DNA from: Marinitoga sp. 1197
GTDB taxonomy: Bacteria; Thermotogota; Thermotogae; Petrotogales; Petrotogaceae
DNA length: 56,778 nt
Assembly (NCBI RefSeq): GCF_001021165.1
Contig: NZ_AZAY01000045.1
Span: 1-56,778, forward strand
Direction: 5' to 3'
Each line of letters starts with the position of its first letter. Position 1 is the first letter of the stretch. The position numbers and the translations under genes were made by a program. Below, piece after piece: positions 28,036 to 38,206 of this stretch. Under the pieces are notes generated by a model. The model saw only the letters and a program-made list of their open reading frames with translations, was not told where the DNA came from and did no database searches.

Positions 28036-28059
28036 AAAAGCCCCCCTAAAAATAAAGAT

Positions 28060-28156
28060 GGCCGGGCACCCCCGCGGCACACAGGAAGTACCGCTTATGG
28101 CTGCTCCCTTCCGGGCCTGACCAGGTTCGCGGGTTCCCGTTGCGCGGGACCCAGCC
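28060..28156 (-). ncRNA. ffs: Signal recognition particle RNA (4.5S type)
   Basis: The minus strand contains the universal SRP RNA domain IV signature GGTCAGGCCCGGAAGGGAGC followed by AGCCATAAGC. The ends pair as GGCTGGG with CCCGGCC to close a single long hairpin of about 97 nt, the short bacterial form without an Alu domain. The RNA binds Ffh to target membrane proteins. It is followed by a T-rich tract (ATCTTTATTTTTA) that should terminate it. Confidence 0.95.
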
Positions 28157-31928: not shown

Positions 31929-32102
31929 AGTATCCCTCCTAAGTTTGATATATTTAAAACAATTATATCAAAAAATCTTCACTAAATACAAGTATGGCAA
32001 AACAATTTTCTTAATTAATTATATATAATTACTATTAATTATTATTAAATAAACGTGATTATAGATAATAAATAACATGTCAAAAAAATAAAAATATTAT
32101 GG

Positions 32103-32289
32103 TGTCCAATTAGTAAAGTAAGCGAAAACTCGAAAATTGCCTGAAAAAATAGCATATGAAGCCGGTCAATTTTGCATGGATGCAAAATTGAGTGAAGCCG
32201 AACATGGATGTGAGTCTGATACGACCGGCGAAAATATGCTATTTTTGAAGATTGGCAATTAAGGTTTGAGCAATTTTACTTTTTGGACA
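32103..32289 (+). repeat. 187-bp foldable repeat element, copy 1
   Basis: This copy and the one at 35971-36157 are both exactly 187 bp, in opposite orientation, and by my hand alignment differ at about 20 positions. The ends are imperfect inverted repeats (TGTCCAATTAGTAAAGT at the left, complement TGTCCAAAAAGTAAAAT at the right). Nested arms pair inward: AATTGCC/GGCAATT, AAAATAGCATAT/ATATGCTATTTT, GCCGG/CCGGC, and a central hairpin CAATTTTGCAT/ATGCAAAATTG. A MITE-like mobile element or structured RNA is possible. A 9-bp TAAAAATAT occurs on both sides (32089-32097, 32293-32301), a possible but AT-rich target duplication. The rest of the 445-bp gap (31929-32373) holds nothing else recognisable besides the promoter at 32324. 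Confidence 0.88.
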
Positions 32290-32323
32290 TTGTAAAAATA
32301 TAAGAGTAATTTAAATTTTATGG

Positions 32324-32329
32324 TATAAT
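32324..32329 (+). promoter_or_regulatory. Extended -10 promoter of the coiled-coil gene
   Basis: TATGGTATAAT with TATAAT at 32324-32329 and TG in the extended position; no consensus -35. It lies 35 bp downstream of repeat copy 1 and about 45 bp before the ATG at 32374. Confidence 0.7.
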
Positions 32330-32373
32330 GGTAATGAAAATCGGAATTATTCCAGATAAAGAGGAGGAATAAT

Positions 32374-33867
32374 ATGAATGATAATGAATTTAAAAGAGAA
32401 GAGAAAATTGAATTAAATATTGAACATTCTAAAAATGCTGAAGTTGGAAAAAATCTCCAATTGAATAAAACTTTGTCTAGAATTTTTATAATAATTTTGC
32501 TGATTAATGTAATTCTTTTAAGTGGAATATTGTATACAATAATTGAACAATATAATTTTAAACAGCTGTTAAAAAATGATATAGAAAATATAAAAGAAAA
32601 AGTAAATGGACTAAGTGATTTAAACAAAAATCTCGAGAAATTGAACAATAATTTTCAAATTCTGGATATTATTAATTCCAATACACGCCAAATTCCAGAA
32701 ATATTAATGGGATTAGAAGAAAATAATAAAATTTTAGAAACATTAAATATAAATGAAACATCTCGGGGACAAAAAAATAATATTAGCATTGATTTGAAAA
32801 ATGAAATGAATAATTTAAAACAATATATAAAATCAGATATAAACAAAGTTTTAAGTGAAAAAACAAATAGAATATTAAATGAGATTAATAAAATTGAAAA
32901 AAATATAAATGATAAATTAAGAGAAACAACCGAAAAAATAGACGGGGTTTCAGTAAATTTTGATAATATTGAAAAAGTAATTGAAGGTAAAAATATAAAA
33001 ATTCTGGATAGAATCAATACAATTTCTCTAAATACAAAAGGGTTAGAAGATCTTATAAATGAAATTAATTCAAACATTAAAAAAATAAATTCAGGAAATA
33101 AAAATATTTACGATAAGGTTCAAGAAATAGATGAAAAAATAAAAGAGATTGAGGAAAATGAGGTTGTTACAAAAGAAATAGAAGAGATTAAAAATATGGT
33201 GATAATGATTGATAAAAAAATATCAGACTTAGAAAATGATATTTCCAAAAAGCAGGAAGAATATTATAAAAAACTTGAATACCTAATGAATAAAGAAGAT
33301 ATTTTATCATTAATTGATAAATTAGATAATTATATAAAAGGTAAAGAATTTAAATTGATAGAGATGATTAATATATATAATAATATAGTTTTGAGATATA
33401 GTGATTTTTCTAATGATAGTGATGTAAAAAAGAGTTTTTTGAAAATTTCAAAAATGGTATACAGCAAGTATTTAACAATAATAACAGATGAAATTTCATA
33501 TATGGAAAGATCGATGTATAGTGAAAATATAAAAAAAGATGTCAAATATTTATTGTATGTATTTGAAAGATTTCCGGAAAATACTGAATTTAGAGAGGAA
33601 TATAATACAATTGAAAATTATTTAAAAAAATTAAAGGAGTTAGAAAATCAGAAAAAAATGGAATATAACAATAAAGCAATATATGAGATGAATGAGTATT
33701 TAGATCTATTTAAAAAGAAAATGGTTTCTCAAGAAGAAATAATAAAGTATTTTAAGAAAAAAATATTACCAATAAATGAAAATCTTTTAGAGGAAAATGT
33801 AAAAGAAAGATATTACAATATTATTGATAAAACAAAAGAGATATTAAAAGATAGATATATATGGTAA
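32374..33867 (+). CDS. Membrane-anchored long coiled-coil protein, function unknown
   Basis: The 497-residue protein has a short charged N-terminus, one membrane helix (about 36-57, LSRIFIIILLINVILLSGILY), then some 230 residues of almost uninterrupted heptad repeats (about 65-310) and a helical C-terminal domain (about 330-497) rich in lysine and tyrosine. The topology (N-in) would place the coiled coil outside the cytoplasm. Such proteins often act as spacers or scaffold partners in the envelope, but I recognise no family. GAGGAGG precedes the ATG. It is monocistronic, flanked by the repeat element and by convergent tRNA genes. Confidence 0.75.
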   Translation: MNDNEFKREEKIELNIEHSKNAEVGKNLQLNKTLSRIFIIILLINVILLSGILYTIIEQYNFKQLLKNDIENIKEKVNGLSDLNKNLEKLNNNFQILDIINSNTRQIPEILMGLEENNKILETLNINETSRGQKNNISIDLKNEMNNLKQYIKSDINKVLSEKTNRILNEINKIEKNINDKLRETTEKIDGVSVNFDNIEKVIEGKNIKILDRINTISLNTKGLEDLINEINSNIKKINSGNKNIYDKVQEIDEKIKEIEENEVVTKEIEEIKNMVIMIDKKISDLENDISKKQEEYYKKLEYLMNKEDILSLIDKLDNYIKGKEFKLIEMINIYNNIVLRYSDFSNDSDVKKSFLKISKMVYSKYLTIITDEISYMERSMYSENIKKDVKYLLYVFERFPENTEFREEYNTIENYLKKLKELENQKKMEYNNKAIYEMNEYLDLFKKKMVSQEEIIKYFKKKILPINENLLEENVKERYYNIIDKTKEILKDRYIW

Positions 33868-33871
33868 AAAA

Positions 33872-33900
33872 AAATAAAGGGCATATGCCCTTTATTTTTT
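33872..33900 (+). terminator. Terminator of the coiled-coil gene
   Basis: AAATAAAGGGCATATGCCCTTTATTT is a perfect palindrome followed by T-run to 33900; the last T is also the first base of the tRNA-Arg CCA end on the other strand, so the two units touch. Confidence 0.9.
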
Positions 33901-33976
33901 GGCGTGCCCGACTGGATTTGAACCAGCAACCTTTGGATCCGCAGTCCAATGCTCTATCCAATTGAGCTACGGGCAC
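33900..33976 (-). tRNA. tRNA-Arg (GCG)
   Basis: A 77-nt cloverleaf with acceptor GTGCCCG/CGGGCAC, anticodon stem TTGGA/TCCAA enclosing the loop CTGCGGA, so the anticodon is GCG, and encoded CCA. Most bacteria read CGN with an ACG anticodon edited to ICG; G34 is unusual. Confidence 0.95.
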
Positions 33977-33996
33977 ATAAAAATTGATAAAAAAAA

Positions 33997-34086
33997 TGGC
34001 GGAGAGGGTGGGATTTGAACCCACGGAGGGTAATAACCCTCACTTGCTTAGCAGGCAAGCGCCTTCGGCCGCTCGGCCACCTCTCC
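33997..34086 (-). tRNA. tRNA-Ser (GCT)
   Basis: A 90-nt class II tRNA with acceptor GGAGAGG/CCTCTCC, anticodon loop CTGCTAA (anticodon GCT), a long variable arm (GTGAGGGTTATTACCCTC) and encoded CCA. Confidence 0.97.
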
Positions 34087-34097
34087 GACGCAAAACA

Positions 34098-34126
34098 ATT
34101 ATAACATGAAGATCAATCTTTGTCAA
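34098..34126 (-). promoter_or_regulatory. Promoter of tRNA-Ser/tRNA-Arg, inside the 3' end of proS
   Basis: On the minus strand a perfect TTGACA (complement of 34121-34126), 17-base spacer and perfect TATAAT (complement of 34098-34103). The -35 box is within the last codons of proS (stop at 34113-34115). Confidence 0.92.
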
Positions 34127-35858
34127 TAGAATTAAGGTAAATTTTTGGGTCGTATTCGTTTAATTTTTTTTCAACAATTTCTAATAATTTATTGAAGGAT
34201 TCCGATATATCAACTTCTAAAGCATTTTTTTCATATCTTAATTTTAATTCGACTTTACCATCTTTCATTTTTTTACCGATTATGATTTTCAACGGAATAC
34301 CTATTAAATCAGCATCTTTAAATTTAAAACCTGGAGAAGCATCTCTATCATCGTACAAAACATCATATTTATCTTTTAATAAATTATAAATTTCTTCTGA
34401 TTTTTTAACCAATTCTTTTTGTTTTATAGATACTGGTATAATTACAATTTCAAATGGAGCAATACTTCTTGGCCACATCATTCCGTAATCATCATGTAAC
34501 TGTTCGACAATTGCACCTAAAGTTCTTGAAACTCCCCAGCCATAACATCCCATAATAAAAGGTTTTTGTTTTCCGTTTTCTGCTGTATAATATGCATTTA
34601 ACTTTTCAGAATATTTTGTACCCAATTTAAAAACCTGCCCCACTTCTATACCTTTTATTTCTTTTAACGGAGAATTACATTTTGGACATGGTTCGCCTTT
34701 TGAAACCACTCTAATATCAACAAAATCGTCAACTTTAAAGTCTCTATTCAAATTTACATTCATATAATGAGTATCTTTTTCCATTCCACCAACAACAAAA
34801 TTTTTTAAATTTTTAACGCTTAAATCAGCTATTATTTTAACATCTTTAATTCCAATAGGTCCTATAAAACCAGTTTCTACACCAAATGTACTTTTTATTT
34901 CAGCAGGTTCTCCTAAAGTTAAAGTTTGGTCCCCGAAATATGCTTTAAGTTTTGAAACATTTAATTCAAAATCCCCTCTTATTAATGCTAAAATCCAACC
35001 GTCTCTTCCTTTAAAAAGCAGTGATTTTACAATTTTATTTTTCTCAACATTCAAAAAAGATGAAACATCATCTATTGATTTGACATCTGGTGTATCCATT
35101 TTTTTAATTTCTTTAATATTTTCATTTATTTCATCGAAAACAATATTTGACTCGGCTTTTTCATCAGTTGCAGCATAGCCGCAATCGCAATAATATATAG
35201 TACTTTCACCATATTCAGCTTTTATTTGAAACTCATGAGAATTACTTCCGCCGATGGCACCAGTATCAGCTTCTACTACTAAATAATCTACGCCCAATCT
35301 CTCTAATATTTTTTCATAGGCTTTATAAAAATCGTTGTATGCCTCGTCAAGTGATTTTTCTGAATCGTGAAATGAATAAGCGTCTTTCATTATAAATTCT
35401 CTTGCTCTTAAAACACCAAACCTTGGTCTTATTTCATCCCTGTATTTATTTGCGATTTGAAATAAAGAGACTGGCAATTGTTTATATGATCTTAATTCAT
35501 TTTTTATAATAGTGGTAATCATCTCTTCATGTGTAGGGCCTAATGTGAAGTCTCTATTATGCCTATCCTTTAGTTTCATCATTTCAGGTCCATAATCATC
35601 CCATCTGCCACTTTCTTTCCAGATTTCAGCGGGTTGAATAATTGGCATTAATATTTCCTGTGAACCAATTTTTTCCATTTCTTCTCGTACGATATTTTCA
35701 ATTTTCTTAAGAACCTTTGTACCTAAAGGTAAGTAAGTATAAACACCGGATGCGCTTTTTCTTATAAAACCGCCTCTTATTAATAATTCGTGACTTTTAA
35801 TTTCAACATCATTAGGAACTTCTTTTAAAGTTGGTGCATAAAATTTAGACATTTTCAT
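34113..35858 (-). CDS. proS: Prolyl-tRNA synthetase
   Basis: The 581-residue class II synthetase is the bacterial (type I) form with an editing insertion. It starts [20 protein letters not shown], has motif 2 region [21 protein letters not shown], the INS editing domain between (about 225-400, with [17 protein letters not shown]), a cysteine pair CPKCNS, motif 3 [16 protein letters not shown] and the anticodon-binding domain. Length is normal. AGGAGG precedes the ATG by 7 bases. It is divergent from metG with repeat copy 2 between them. Confidence 0.97.
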
Positions 35859-35970
35859 AACAATTCCTCCTGTATTTATATTTTTTTGTTTTATTTATTT
35901 TAACATATCATTTTAAATAAAACAACTTTAGAAAGTAAAAAAAATATGAAGGTCAAAAGATATAATATGC

Positions 35971-36157
35971 TGTCCAAAAAGTAAAGTCGCTCAAACCTTG
36001 ATTGTTAATCCTCAAAAATAGCTCATTCTCGCCGGTCGTATCAGACTCACATCCATGTTCGGCTTCACTTAATTTTGCATCCGTGCAAAATTGACCGACT
36101 TCATTCGCTATTTTTTCGGACAATCTGCGAGTTTTCGCTTGCTTTACTAATTGAACA
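35971..36157 (-). repeat. 187-bp foldable repeat element, copy 2 (inverted relative to copy 1)
   Basis: Read on the minus strand this copy aligns end to end with copy 1 without gaps. Its arms show compensatory changes relative to copy 1: AATTGCC/GGCAATT becomes GATTGTC/AACAATC, so an A-T pair becomes G-C and a C-G pair becomes T-A while pairing is kept. AGATATA stands on both sides at 35958-35964 and 36162-36168, a possible target duplication. It occupies the 404-bp divergent gap between proS (35858) and metG (36263); beyond it only the metG promoter is visible. Confidence 0.88.
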
Positions 36158-36262: not shown

Positions 36263-38206
36263 GTGAAAAAATTTTATGTAACTACTCCCATATATTATGT
36301 TAATGCAGAACCGCATATAGGATCAAGTTATACAACAATAGTTGGAGATATAATAGCAAGGTATAAAAGAATGAGAGGATTTGATGTATTTTATTTAACA
36401 GGTACAGATGAACATGGTCAGAAAATAATGCAAGCTGCTAAAGCTAAAAATATAGAGCCACAGGAATTATGTGATGAATTAGCAGGGAAATTTAAAACAC
36501 TGTGGGAAAAATTGGATATTACAAATGATTATTTTGTAAGAACTACAGATGAGCAGCATATGAAAACAGTTCAATATATAGTAAAAAAGATGATGGAAAA
36601 TGGAGATATATACAAAGGCAAGTATGAAGGTTGGTATTGTGTGCCATGTGAAACTTATTGGACAAAGGATGAAATTGAAGAAAAGAATGGAAAGAAAATA
36701 TGTCCCTCTTGTGGCAGAGAGGTGAATTGGGTAGAAGAAGAAAATTATTTTTTCAAACTTTCAAAATATAATGAACCTTTAAAAAAACATTTTGAAGAAA
36801 ATCCTGATTTTGTGGAACCAGAATTCAGAAAAAATGAAATGTTGAAAATATTGGAAAGTGGATTAAAAGATTTAAGTATAACCAGGACAACTTTTAATTG
36901 GGGAGTTCAAATGCCTGATGATCCAAAACATGTAATTTATGTTTGGGTTGATGCTTTGATAAATTATGTCAGTGCTCTTGGATATCCGGAAAATAAGGAA
37001 ATGTTTGAGAAATATTGGCCAGCAGACTTGCATTTAATAGGGAAAGAAATAAATAGATTTCATTCGTTAATATGGCCAGCAATGCTGATGTCAGCAGGTT
37101 TACCATTGCCTAAAAAGATTTTTGCTCATGGATGGTTAACTGTAAATGGAGAAAAAATATCAAAATCCCTTGGTAATGCAATTGATCCAAGAGTTTTAGT
37201 TAAGTCGTATGGAAATGATGTTATAAGATATTATTTAATGAGAGACATAGTTTTTGGGAAAGATGGCGATTTTTCAGAAGATAATTTAATAACAAGATAT
37301 AATTCAGATTTAGTGAATGATTTAAGTAATTTAGTTCATAGAACTTTATCCATGGTTAATAAATATTTTGATGGAATTATACCACAGCTAAAAGAAAAAA
37401 AAGATGTAGATAATCAATTATTTAAATTAATAAACGAAACAGTGAAAAAGTACGAAGAAAATATGGATAAATATTTATTCACACATGCGTTGGATAATTT
37501 GTGGGAATTAGTAAGATTTACAAATAAATATATAGATTTAACAGAACCATGGTTATTGGGAAAAGATGAATCAAAAAAAGATAGATTATCAACTGTTATG
37601 TATAATTTAATGGATTCAATTAGAATTATAGCATTACTAATATCGCCAATTATGCCGGATACATCTATAAAAATATTAAAAAAATTAGCTATTGAAAATC
37701 CAGAAGAATATTTAAAAAGTGAAAATATCAAAATTGGTTTATTAGTACCAGATAGAAAAATAGAAATAGGTAATCCTATTTTCAAAAGAATAGATGTTAA
37801 GAACTGGAAAAAGGTAATAGTTATGAAAAAGGAGGAAAAAGACATGGAAGAGAAAAAGATTGAAGAAAAATTCGAAAATGTTTTGATTGATATAGAATAT
37901 TTTAAGAATGTAGATTTAAGAGTTGCTGAAATAATTGAGGCAGAAAAAGTAAAAAAATCCAGAAAGTTGATAAAATTACAATTAAATTTAGGCGAATTGG
38001 GAAAAAGACAGATAGTTGCAGGGATTGCTAATTATTATGAACCAGAGAATTTAATTGGTAAAAAAATTATAATAGTAGCAAATTTAAAACCTGCAAAATT
38101 AATGGGAATAGAATCAAATGGAATGTTACTTGCAGCAAAAATAAATGACAAATTAGTATTATTAACAACAGATGGTGAGATTGAACCAGGAGCTAAAATT
38201 TCTTAA
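36263..38206 (+). CDS. metG: Methionyl-tRNA synthetase with C-terminal tRNA-binding domain
   Basis: The 647-residue class I enzyme charges tRNA-Met. It has TPIYYVNAEPHIGSSYTTI (HIGH as HIGS), a zinc knuckle CVPCETYW...CPSCGREVNW (about 126-158), KMSKS as KISKSLGNAIDP, an anticodon-binding helical domain, a charged linker (about 520-545) and a C-terminal OB-fold tRNA-binding domain (NVDLRVAEIIEAEKV to the end) that promotes dimerisation. The start codon is GTG at 36263 after AGGAGGTTGAGAAA. It heads the long plus-strand gene string. Confidence 0.96.
   Translation: MKKFYVTTPIYYVNAEPHIGSSYTTIVGDIIARYKRMRGFDVFYLTGTDEHGQKIMQAAKAKNIEPQELCDELAGKFKTLWEKLDITNDYFVRTTDEQHMKTVQYIVKKMMENGDIYKGKYEGWYCVPCETYWTKDEIEEKNGKKICPSCGREVNWVEEENYFFKLSKYNEPLKKHFEENPDFVEPEFRKNEMLKILESGLKDLSITRTTFNWGVQMPDDPKHVIYVWVDALINYVSALGYPENKEMFEKYWPADLHLIGKEINRFHSLIWPAMLMSAGLPLPKKIFAHGWLTVNGEKISKSLGNAIDPRVLVKSYGNDVIRYYLMRDIVFGKDGDFSEDNLITRYNSDLVNDLSNLVHRTLSMVNKYFDGIIPQLKEKKDVDNQLFKLINETVKKYEENMDKYLFTHALDNLWELVRFTNKYIDLTEPWLLGKDESKKDRLSTVMYNLMDSIRIIALLISPIMPDTSIKILKKLAIENPEEYLKSENIKIGLLVPDRKIEIGNPIFKRIDVKNWKKVIVMKKEEKDMEEKKIEEKFENVLIDIEYFKNVDLRVAEIIEAEKVKKSRKLIKLQLNLGELGKRQIVAGIANYYEPENLIGKKIIIVANLKPAKLMGIESNGMLLAAKINDKLVLLTTDGEIEPGAKIS

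Follow-up and report, generated by a model that had tools for sequence, protein, structure and literature searches.

The window analysed here, a 56,778-nt contig of Marinitoga sp. 1197 (NZ_AZAY01000045.1), contains two copies, in inverted orientation, of a 187-bp repeat. Because of its ends, its target duplications, its empty sites and a matching insertion sequence (IS), the repeat is almost certainly a non-autonomous transposable element, namely a miniature inverted-repeat transposable element (MITE). Its core very likely belongs to the TwoAYGGAY type of RNA (Rfam family RF01731), judged by sequence and predicted structure. The reading that we favour, and regard as probable, is of a MITE whose TwoAYGGAY-type core, when transcribed, most likely docks one CsrA dimer with its two hairpin loops.

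A mobile element family present throughout the genus

A preliminary description of the window had reported inverted 187-bp repeats with imperfect terminal inverted repeats and had proposed that they are either a MITE or members of a family of structured RNA genes. The copies align without gaps (167 of 187 positions identical, 89.3%), and the terminal inverted repeats are present as described. The element extends about 5 nt beyond each 187-bp edge, with TAnGG preceding TGTCC on one side, TnGTA following GGACA on the other, and then the target duplication. Both of the proposed identities hold, the MITE by its ends, duplications, empty sites and IS, and the structured RNA by a core that scores as RF01731, copy 1 falling just under the cut-off and several relatives above it.

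Evidence for transposition comes from the flanks. Direct repeats beside the element average 9.2 nt for 22 full copies of the type found in the window (family A) and 9.5 nt for 23 copies of a second type (subfamily B), reaching at least 8 nt in 17 of 22 and 17 of 23 cases, compared with an average of 5.2-5.6 nt and 7-8% reaching that length in a control of mismatched flanks. The target duplications measure 8-14 bp, mostly about 9-10 bp, in AT-rich target sequence, and the elements sit in intergenic positions. At the proS-metG junction, which holds copy 2 in the window, the element is missing in all six relatives, and the two flanks are directly joined in one of them (G005). The element is about 190 bp long, occurs in many copies and has no transposase open reading frame (ORF) inside; a transposase encoded elsewhere probably moves it. 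An IS with the outer sequence TAGnn TGTCYAAAAAGTCTAA, matching the element ends (TGTCYAAAAAGT), was found in this genome and in relatives, as a frameshifted copy of 1021 bp (G001:C64:1169-2189) and as pieces at contig ends in this genome (start of C50, end of C1). Its protein matches PF01609 DDE_Tnp_1 (E 3.8e-12), with the IS982, IS5 and IS4 transposase models below cut-off. The shared ends suggest that this DDE_Tnp_1 IS probably moves the MITEs in trans.

The family was surveyed in seven genomes belonging to the genus and designated G000 to G006, of which G000 (2.27 Mb, 51 contigs) is the source of the window. Used as a BLAST query on its own genome, copy 1 matched 42 places, at about 22 of which the match was full-length (family A). 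Subfamily B, also full-length, counts about 23 copies with ends TGTCTAAAAAGTC, and a third type, C, combines other ends with the same core. One core is therefore common to elements whose ends are of three or more kinds, and its copy number exceeds that of any single end type. A covariance model built on the 69-nt core (R1) found 67, 1, 35, 25, 42, 5 and 2 cores in G000 to G006, a total of 177 in seven of seven genomes; 31 other genomes of the order gave no match. The further copies whose absence would have refuted the preliminary description thus exist, the covariance model placing 67 in this genome. A DNA search of 61 genomes confined the element to the genus. Exact-pattern scans of genome contigs and viral contigs, and distant BLAST of plasmids and phages, gave no match in collections that may be without near relatives.

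Individual copies showed further features. Two B-type copies with shared flanks (L260 in G006 and L261 in G001) are orthologous and represent an older insertion. In about ten copies (L028, L029, L030, L035 and several of type B, such as G000:C48:22998-23399), another module (ACACGCTACCGCGGGTATTGG ... CTTAGATTTTTTATAAAAAATCTAAGCG), which may be a nested element, either interrupts an arm segment or takes its place. Elements with CAGACTGTnGACAAAATAAAATA ends adjoin intrinsic-terminator hairpins in G003 (L124, L127, L130), with terminator-like sequence on either side. At G000:C2:34277-35096 (L106), two inverted element ends surround a 198-codon open frame that looks by eye like an acetate/succinate transporter; the arrangement may reflect capture of a gene or the decay of two insertions, and it was not called as a cassette, no target duplication being seen.

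A core with changing stems and conserved loops

A single long hairpin can form on each strand of the 187-bp copies. As RNA, copy 1 folds at -67.8 kcal/mol, compared with -36.2 +/- 3.7 kcal/mol for dinucleotide shuffles (z = -8.6; 0 of 200 as good), and the folding strand was the more stable one in 63 of 65 elements. The core is a three-way junction in which a closing stem opens into hairpin 1 and hairpin 2, with a linker between the two. Across an alignment of 14 core sequences, 99.7% of 307 pair cells were paired over 22 pairs, and 10 of the 22 pairs had changed on both sides, against 0-3 when the alignment was slid. Two-sided change is therefore seen beyond the two window copies, in whose outer arm it had first been noted. 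That original example stands in part: two pairs changed with pairing kept (A-T to G-C and C-G to T-A), and a third is broken in copy 2 (C-G to C.A). The sister copies nearest copy 1 likewise show C.A at this last outer-arm pair (TTAGCAATT). What had been taken for the most conserved, unpaired or loop-like part is core hairpin 2 (ACA-UGGA-UGU with tandem G.A).

Stems vary widely across the family. The closing stem occurs as GCCGGTC/GACCGGC, GCAGGTC/GACCTGC, GGGGGTC/GACCCCC, ATTAGTC/GACTAAT, GGTTTCC/GGAAACC and others, and there are at least five stem types for hairpin 1 and about eight for hairpin 2, while the loops are conserved as CA(N)GGANG. Over about ten stem sequences, GGA is kept in 97 of 103 unique cores in hairpin 1 and in 91 of 103 in hairpin 2, with both N positions varying. 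Tandem G.A mismatches are retained in hairpin 2 and in the arms.

A search against Rfam at the gathering threshold missed the element, and RF01731 emerged only in an E-value search, where copy 1 matched over the full model length at 41.9 bits (gathering cut-off, 43 bits). Among 40 related loci of this and other genomes, ten matches reached or exceeded the cut-off (43.1-52.2 bits).

A putative link to CsrA

The CA(N)GGANG sequence in the paired core hairpin loops is the published CsrA/RsmA signature: the CsrA consensus is given as RUACARGGAUGU and (A/U)CANGGANG(U/A) (quoted in PMC6692469), and the CsrB motif as CAGGA(U/A/C)G (PMC7652899). Since CsrA binding by TwoAYGGAY was put forward earlier by Gardner and Eldai (PMC4333381), who also noted the tandem G.A, the CsrA reading itself is not new.

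The host encodes the predicted partner. Each of the seven genus genomes has one csrA. In this genome csrA comes after flgK-flgL-fliW; among proteins of solved structure, those closest to its product in sequence are chains named carbon storage regulator. The FliW directly upstream of it is a double-domain protein (two matching stretches; L248:2863-3843, minus strand). Upstream of the flagellin genes, the ribosome-binding site is CACGGAGGTG or CATGGAGGTG, i.e., CA(C/T)GGAGG, in the loci that were placed, of which every genus genome has at least one; one further main-type locus in each of G002 and G006, and the shorter paralogues, were not placed. As CsrA acts on the hag leader in Bacillus (PMC7652899), the loop motif is thus placed where CsrA acts in that organism, and the flagellin leader sites are likely CsrA targets, as far as the motif indicates. 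These ribosome-binding sites (e.g., L337, L341 and L348) often lie within a TTTCAC/GTGAAA hairpin, and some 30 nt further downstream flagellin codons 6-8 supply another such site, ACATGGAAG.

In the mechanism we propose, the element would be moved in trans by an IS that shares its TGTCYAAAAAGT ends and encodes a DDE_Tnp_1 transposase. The cargo would be a long stem topped by the three-way junction, presenting two hairpins with CA(N)GGANG loops; the folding strand would be transcribed through read-through or from some promoter, and one CsrA dimer would most likely dock on the two loops. The outcome would vary with context, being either a CsrA site added to a neighbouring transcript or help in titrating CsrA. 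Taken singly, binding of CsrA by the element RNA has about an even chance, and a real effect on free CsrA is doubtful. A more ambitious version also seems unlikely: a mobile CsrA sponge, in which the selected cargo of the MITE family would be a paired CsrA-binding RNA, spread in tens of copies over the genome of a FliW-type bacterium, and transposition would shift both the CsrA regulon and the level of free CsrA.

Weighing the alternatives

Several observations count against the favoured reading. Copy 1 lies 1.1 bits under the RF01731 cut-off, and copy 2 has no listed RF01731 match up to E 0.1. Subfamily B-I carries CGA, not GGA, in hairpin 2 and is the main source of the exceptions to loop conservation. 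The transposase copies that were seen are all fragmentary or frameshifted. By inspection, the promoters of the neighbouring genes probably lie downstream of the window copies in both cases, and scans for promoters and terminators performed at about chance level. Sense orientation is not favoured among the copies: 47 are antisense to both neighbours versus 32 sense, an excess due mostly to G004. We dropped a replication-strand reading, prompted by G004 copies that seem to switch strand mid-chromosome, as local gene direction and antisense placement explain much of the pattern. Finally, the excess of G.U over A.C cells is a weak strand signal (14:5 in A, 39:10 in B, 17:13 in the core), so that quasipalindrome correction, for example, could preserve pairing in the DNA itself. 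This bias is too weak in the core to prove selection at the RNA level, and we did not rely on it.

Such correction would leave a plain MITE, with a hairpin that is a mere DNA palindrome, arms kept complementary by template switching at quasipalindromes, and inherited loops with no role. The near balance of G.U and A.C in the core fits this account, as do core pair cells that are more than 96% Watson-Crick with just 1.4% G.U, and an orientation to genes without sense bias. However, the tandem G.A and the GGA loops persist though the stems have been replaced outright, and palindrome correction would not keep them; the folding strand is the more stable one in nearly all elements, and the core is common to elements with different ends. 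We therefore consider a plain MITE improbable. The strand specificity of the G.A tandems and loops could point to an element acting as single-stranded DNA, with hairpins that a replication protein or transposase recognises as DNA, in the manner of REP/RAYT or IS200/IS605 elements, and one strand does fold better with DNA parameters too (-36.7 vs -34.7). Members of those groups have a Y1 transposase and no target duplication, whereas the present element has duplications of 8-14 bp and inverted ends that it shares with an IS encoding a DDE transposase, and the core outnumbers any one end type, which makes this account very unlikely.

The preliminary description had also suggested that the pair, lying inverted and 3.7 kb apart, could recombine and flip the coiled-coil-tRNA-proS segment between them. 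The genes of the segment keep their order and orientation in G003 and G004, which gives no sign of inversion by the pair; copy 2 is absent from its site in all six relatives, 20 of the 187 positions differ between the two copies, and the genome contains at least 67 copies in all. An invertible segment is thus barely credible, and a MITE with a putative CsrA-docking core is the account we retain.

Features of the window

Coordinates of the two copies, their parts and the genes adjoining copy 2 are given in Table 1. Copy 1 adjoins a coiled-coil open frame of 497 codons (window 32374-33867); relatives have counterparts in the corresponding position, but these are weakly conserved (67-71% identical as DNA). 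The window also contains a small signal recognition particle RNA gene (Rfam RF00169) at 28057-28156 on the minus strand.

Table 1. Positions of the element copies and adjoining genes in the window
Feature	Position	Strand	Remarks
Element copy 1, family A	32103-32289	+	About 32098-32294 with conserved outer 5-mers
Copy 1 left target-site duplication TAAAAATAT	32089-32097		Checked against control over all copies
Copy 1 right target-site duplication TAAAAATAT	32293-32301		Overlaps conserved outer TA
Copy 1 three-way-junction core	32161-32229	+	R1 match 98.8 bits, E 4e-25; within RF01731 match 32119-32274
Copy 1 core hairpin 1, loop GCA-UGGA-UGC	32168-32189	+	GGA at 32178-32180
Copy 1 core hairpin 2, tandem G.A then ACA-UGGA-UGU	32196-32217	+	GGA at 32206-32208
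Element copy 2, family A	35971-36157	-	Between divergent proS and metG; site empty in 6/6 relatives
Copy 2 target-site duplication, low-coordinate side AGATATAA	35958-35965		Empty site in G005
Copy 2 target-site duplication, high-coordinate side AGATATAA	36162-36169		Empty site in G005
Copy 2 three-way-junction core	36031-36099	-	R1 match 93.8 bits
proS, adjoins copy 2, outside element	34113-35858	-	ORF; collinear in relatives
metG, adjoins copy 2, outside element	36263-38206	+	ORF; collinear in relatives

Significance and comparison with known systems

TwoAYGGAY is an orphan RNA family for which CsrA binding has been predicted, not demonstrated, as far as the literature we located goes. That mobile elements with differing ends have its core in common hints at why it spread, and the family supplies about 100 natural variants that differ in their stems but keep the GGA loops. 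If the core does bind CsrA, a mobile element would be rewiring a post-transcriptional regulon as it moves. Because the host csrA adjoins fliW, binding would also bear directly on the coexistence of FliW with RNA antagonists of CsrA; the joint action of FliW and small RNAs is described as undetermined in any species (PMC7652899).

The element core and TwoAYGGAY share two terminal AYGGAY hairpins on a junction, a tandem G.A in a stem and an outer stem. In the part of PMC2864571 drawn on here, TwoAYGGAY is described from human gut, gamma-Proteobacteria and Clostridiales, with no mention of a mobile element. The present core differs in being a genus-wide mobile cargo with terminal inverted repeats and target duplications, probably in Thermotogota. 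The IS5/IS4-like IS (PF01609) of the same genus has the same ends as the element and differs from it in encoding a transposase, lacking the core and measuring about 1.02 kb in G001. Bacterial MITEs of the ERIC, RU and BOX type are likewise intergenic palindromic mobile repeats of 100-200 bp with the potential to fold as RNA (PMC2229807). Unlike them, the present family has a core common to differing ends. To our knowledge, ERIC, RU and BOX elements do not carry paired CsrA-type loops.

Like the sponge RNAs CsrB and RsmX/Y/Z, the element has paired GGA hairpin loops that fit the CsrA consensus. It differs from them in having two sites per unit rather than many and no promoter or terminator that we could see, in being dispersed in tens of copies, and in a host with fliW beside csrA. 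As far as the located literature goes, what is new is a TwoAYGGAY core as mobile cargo under at least three kinds of ends: the parts, a bacterial MITE and an Rfam RNA, are of known kinds, and the combination is new.

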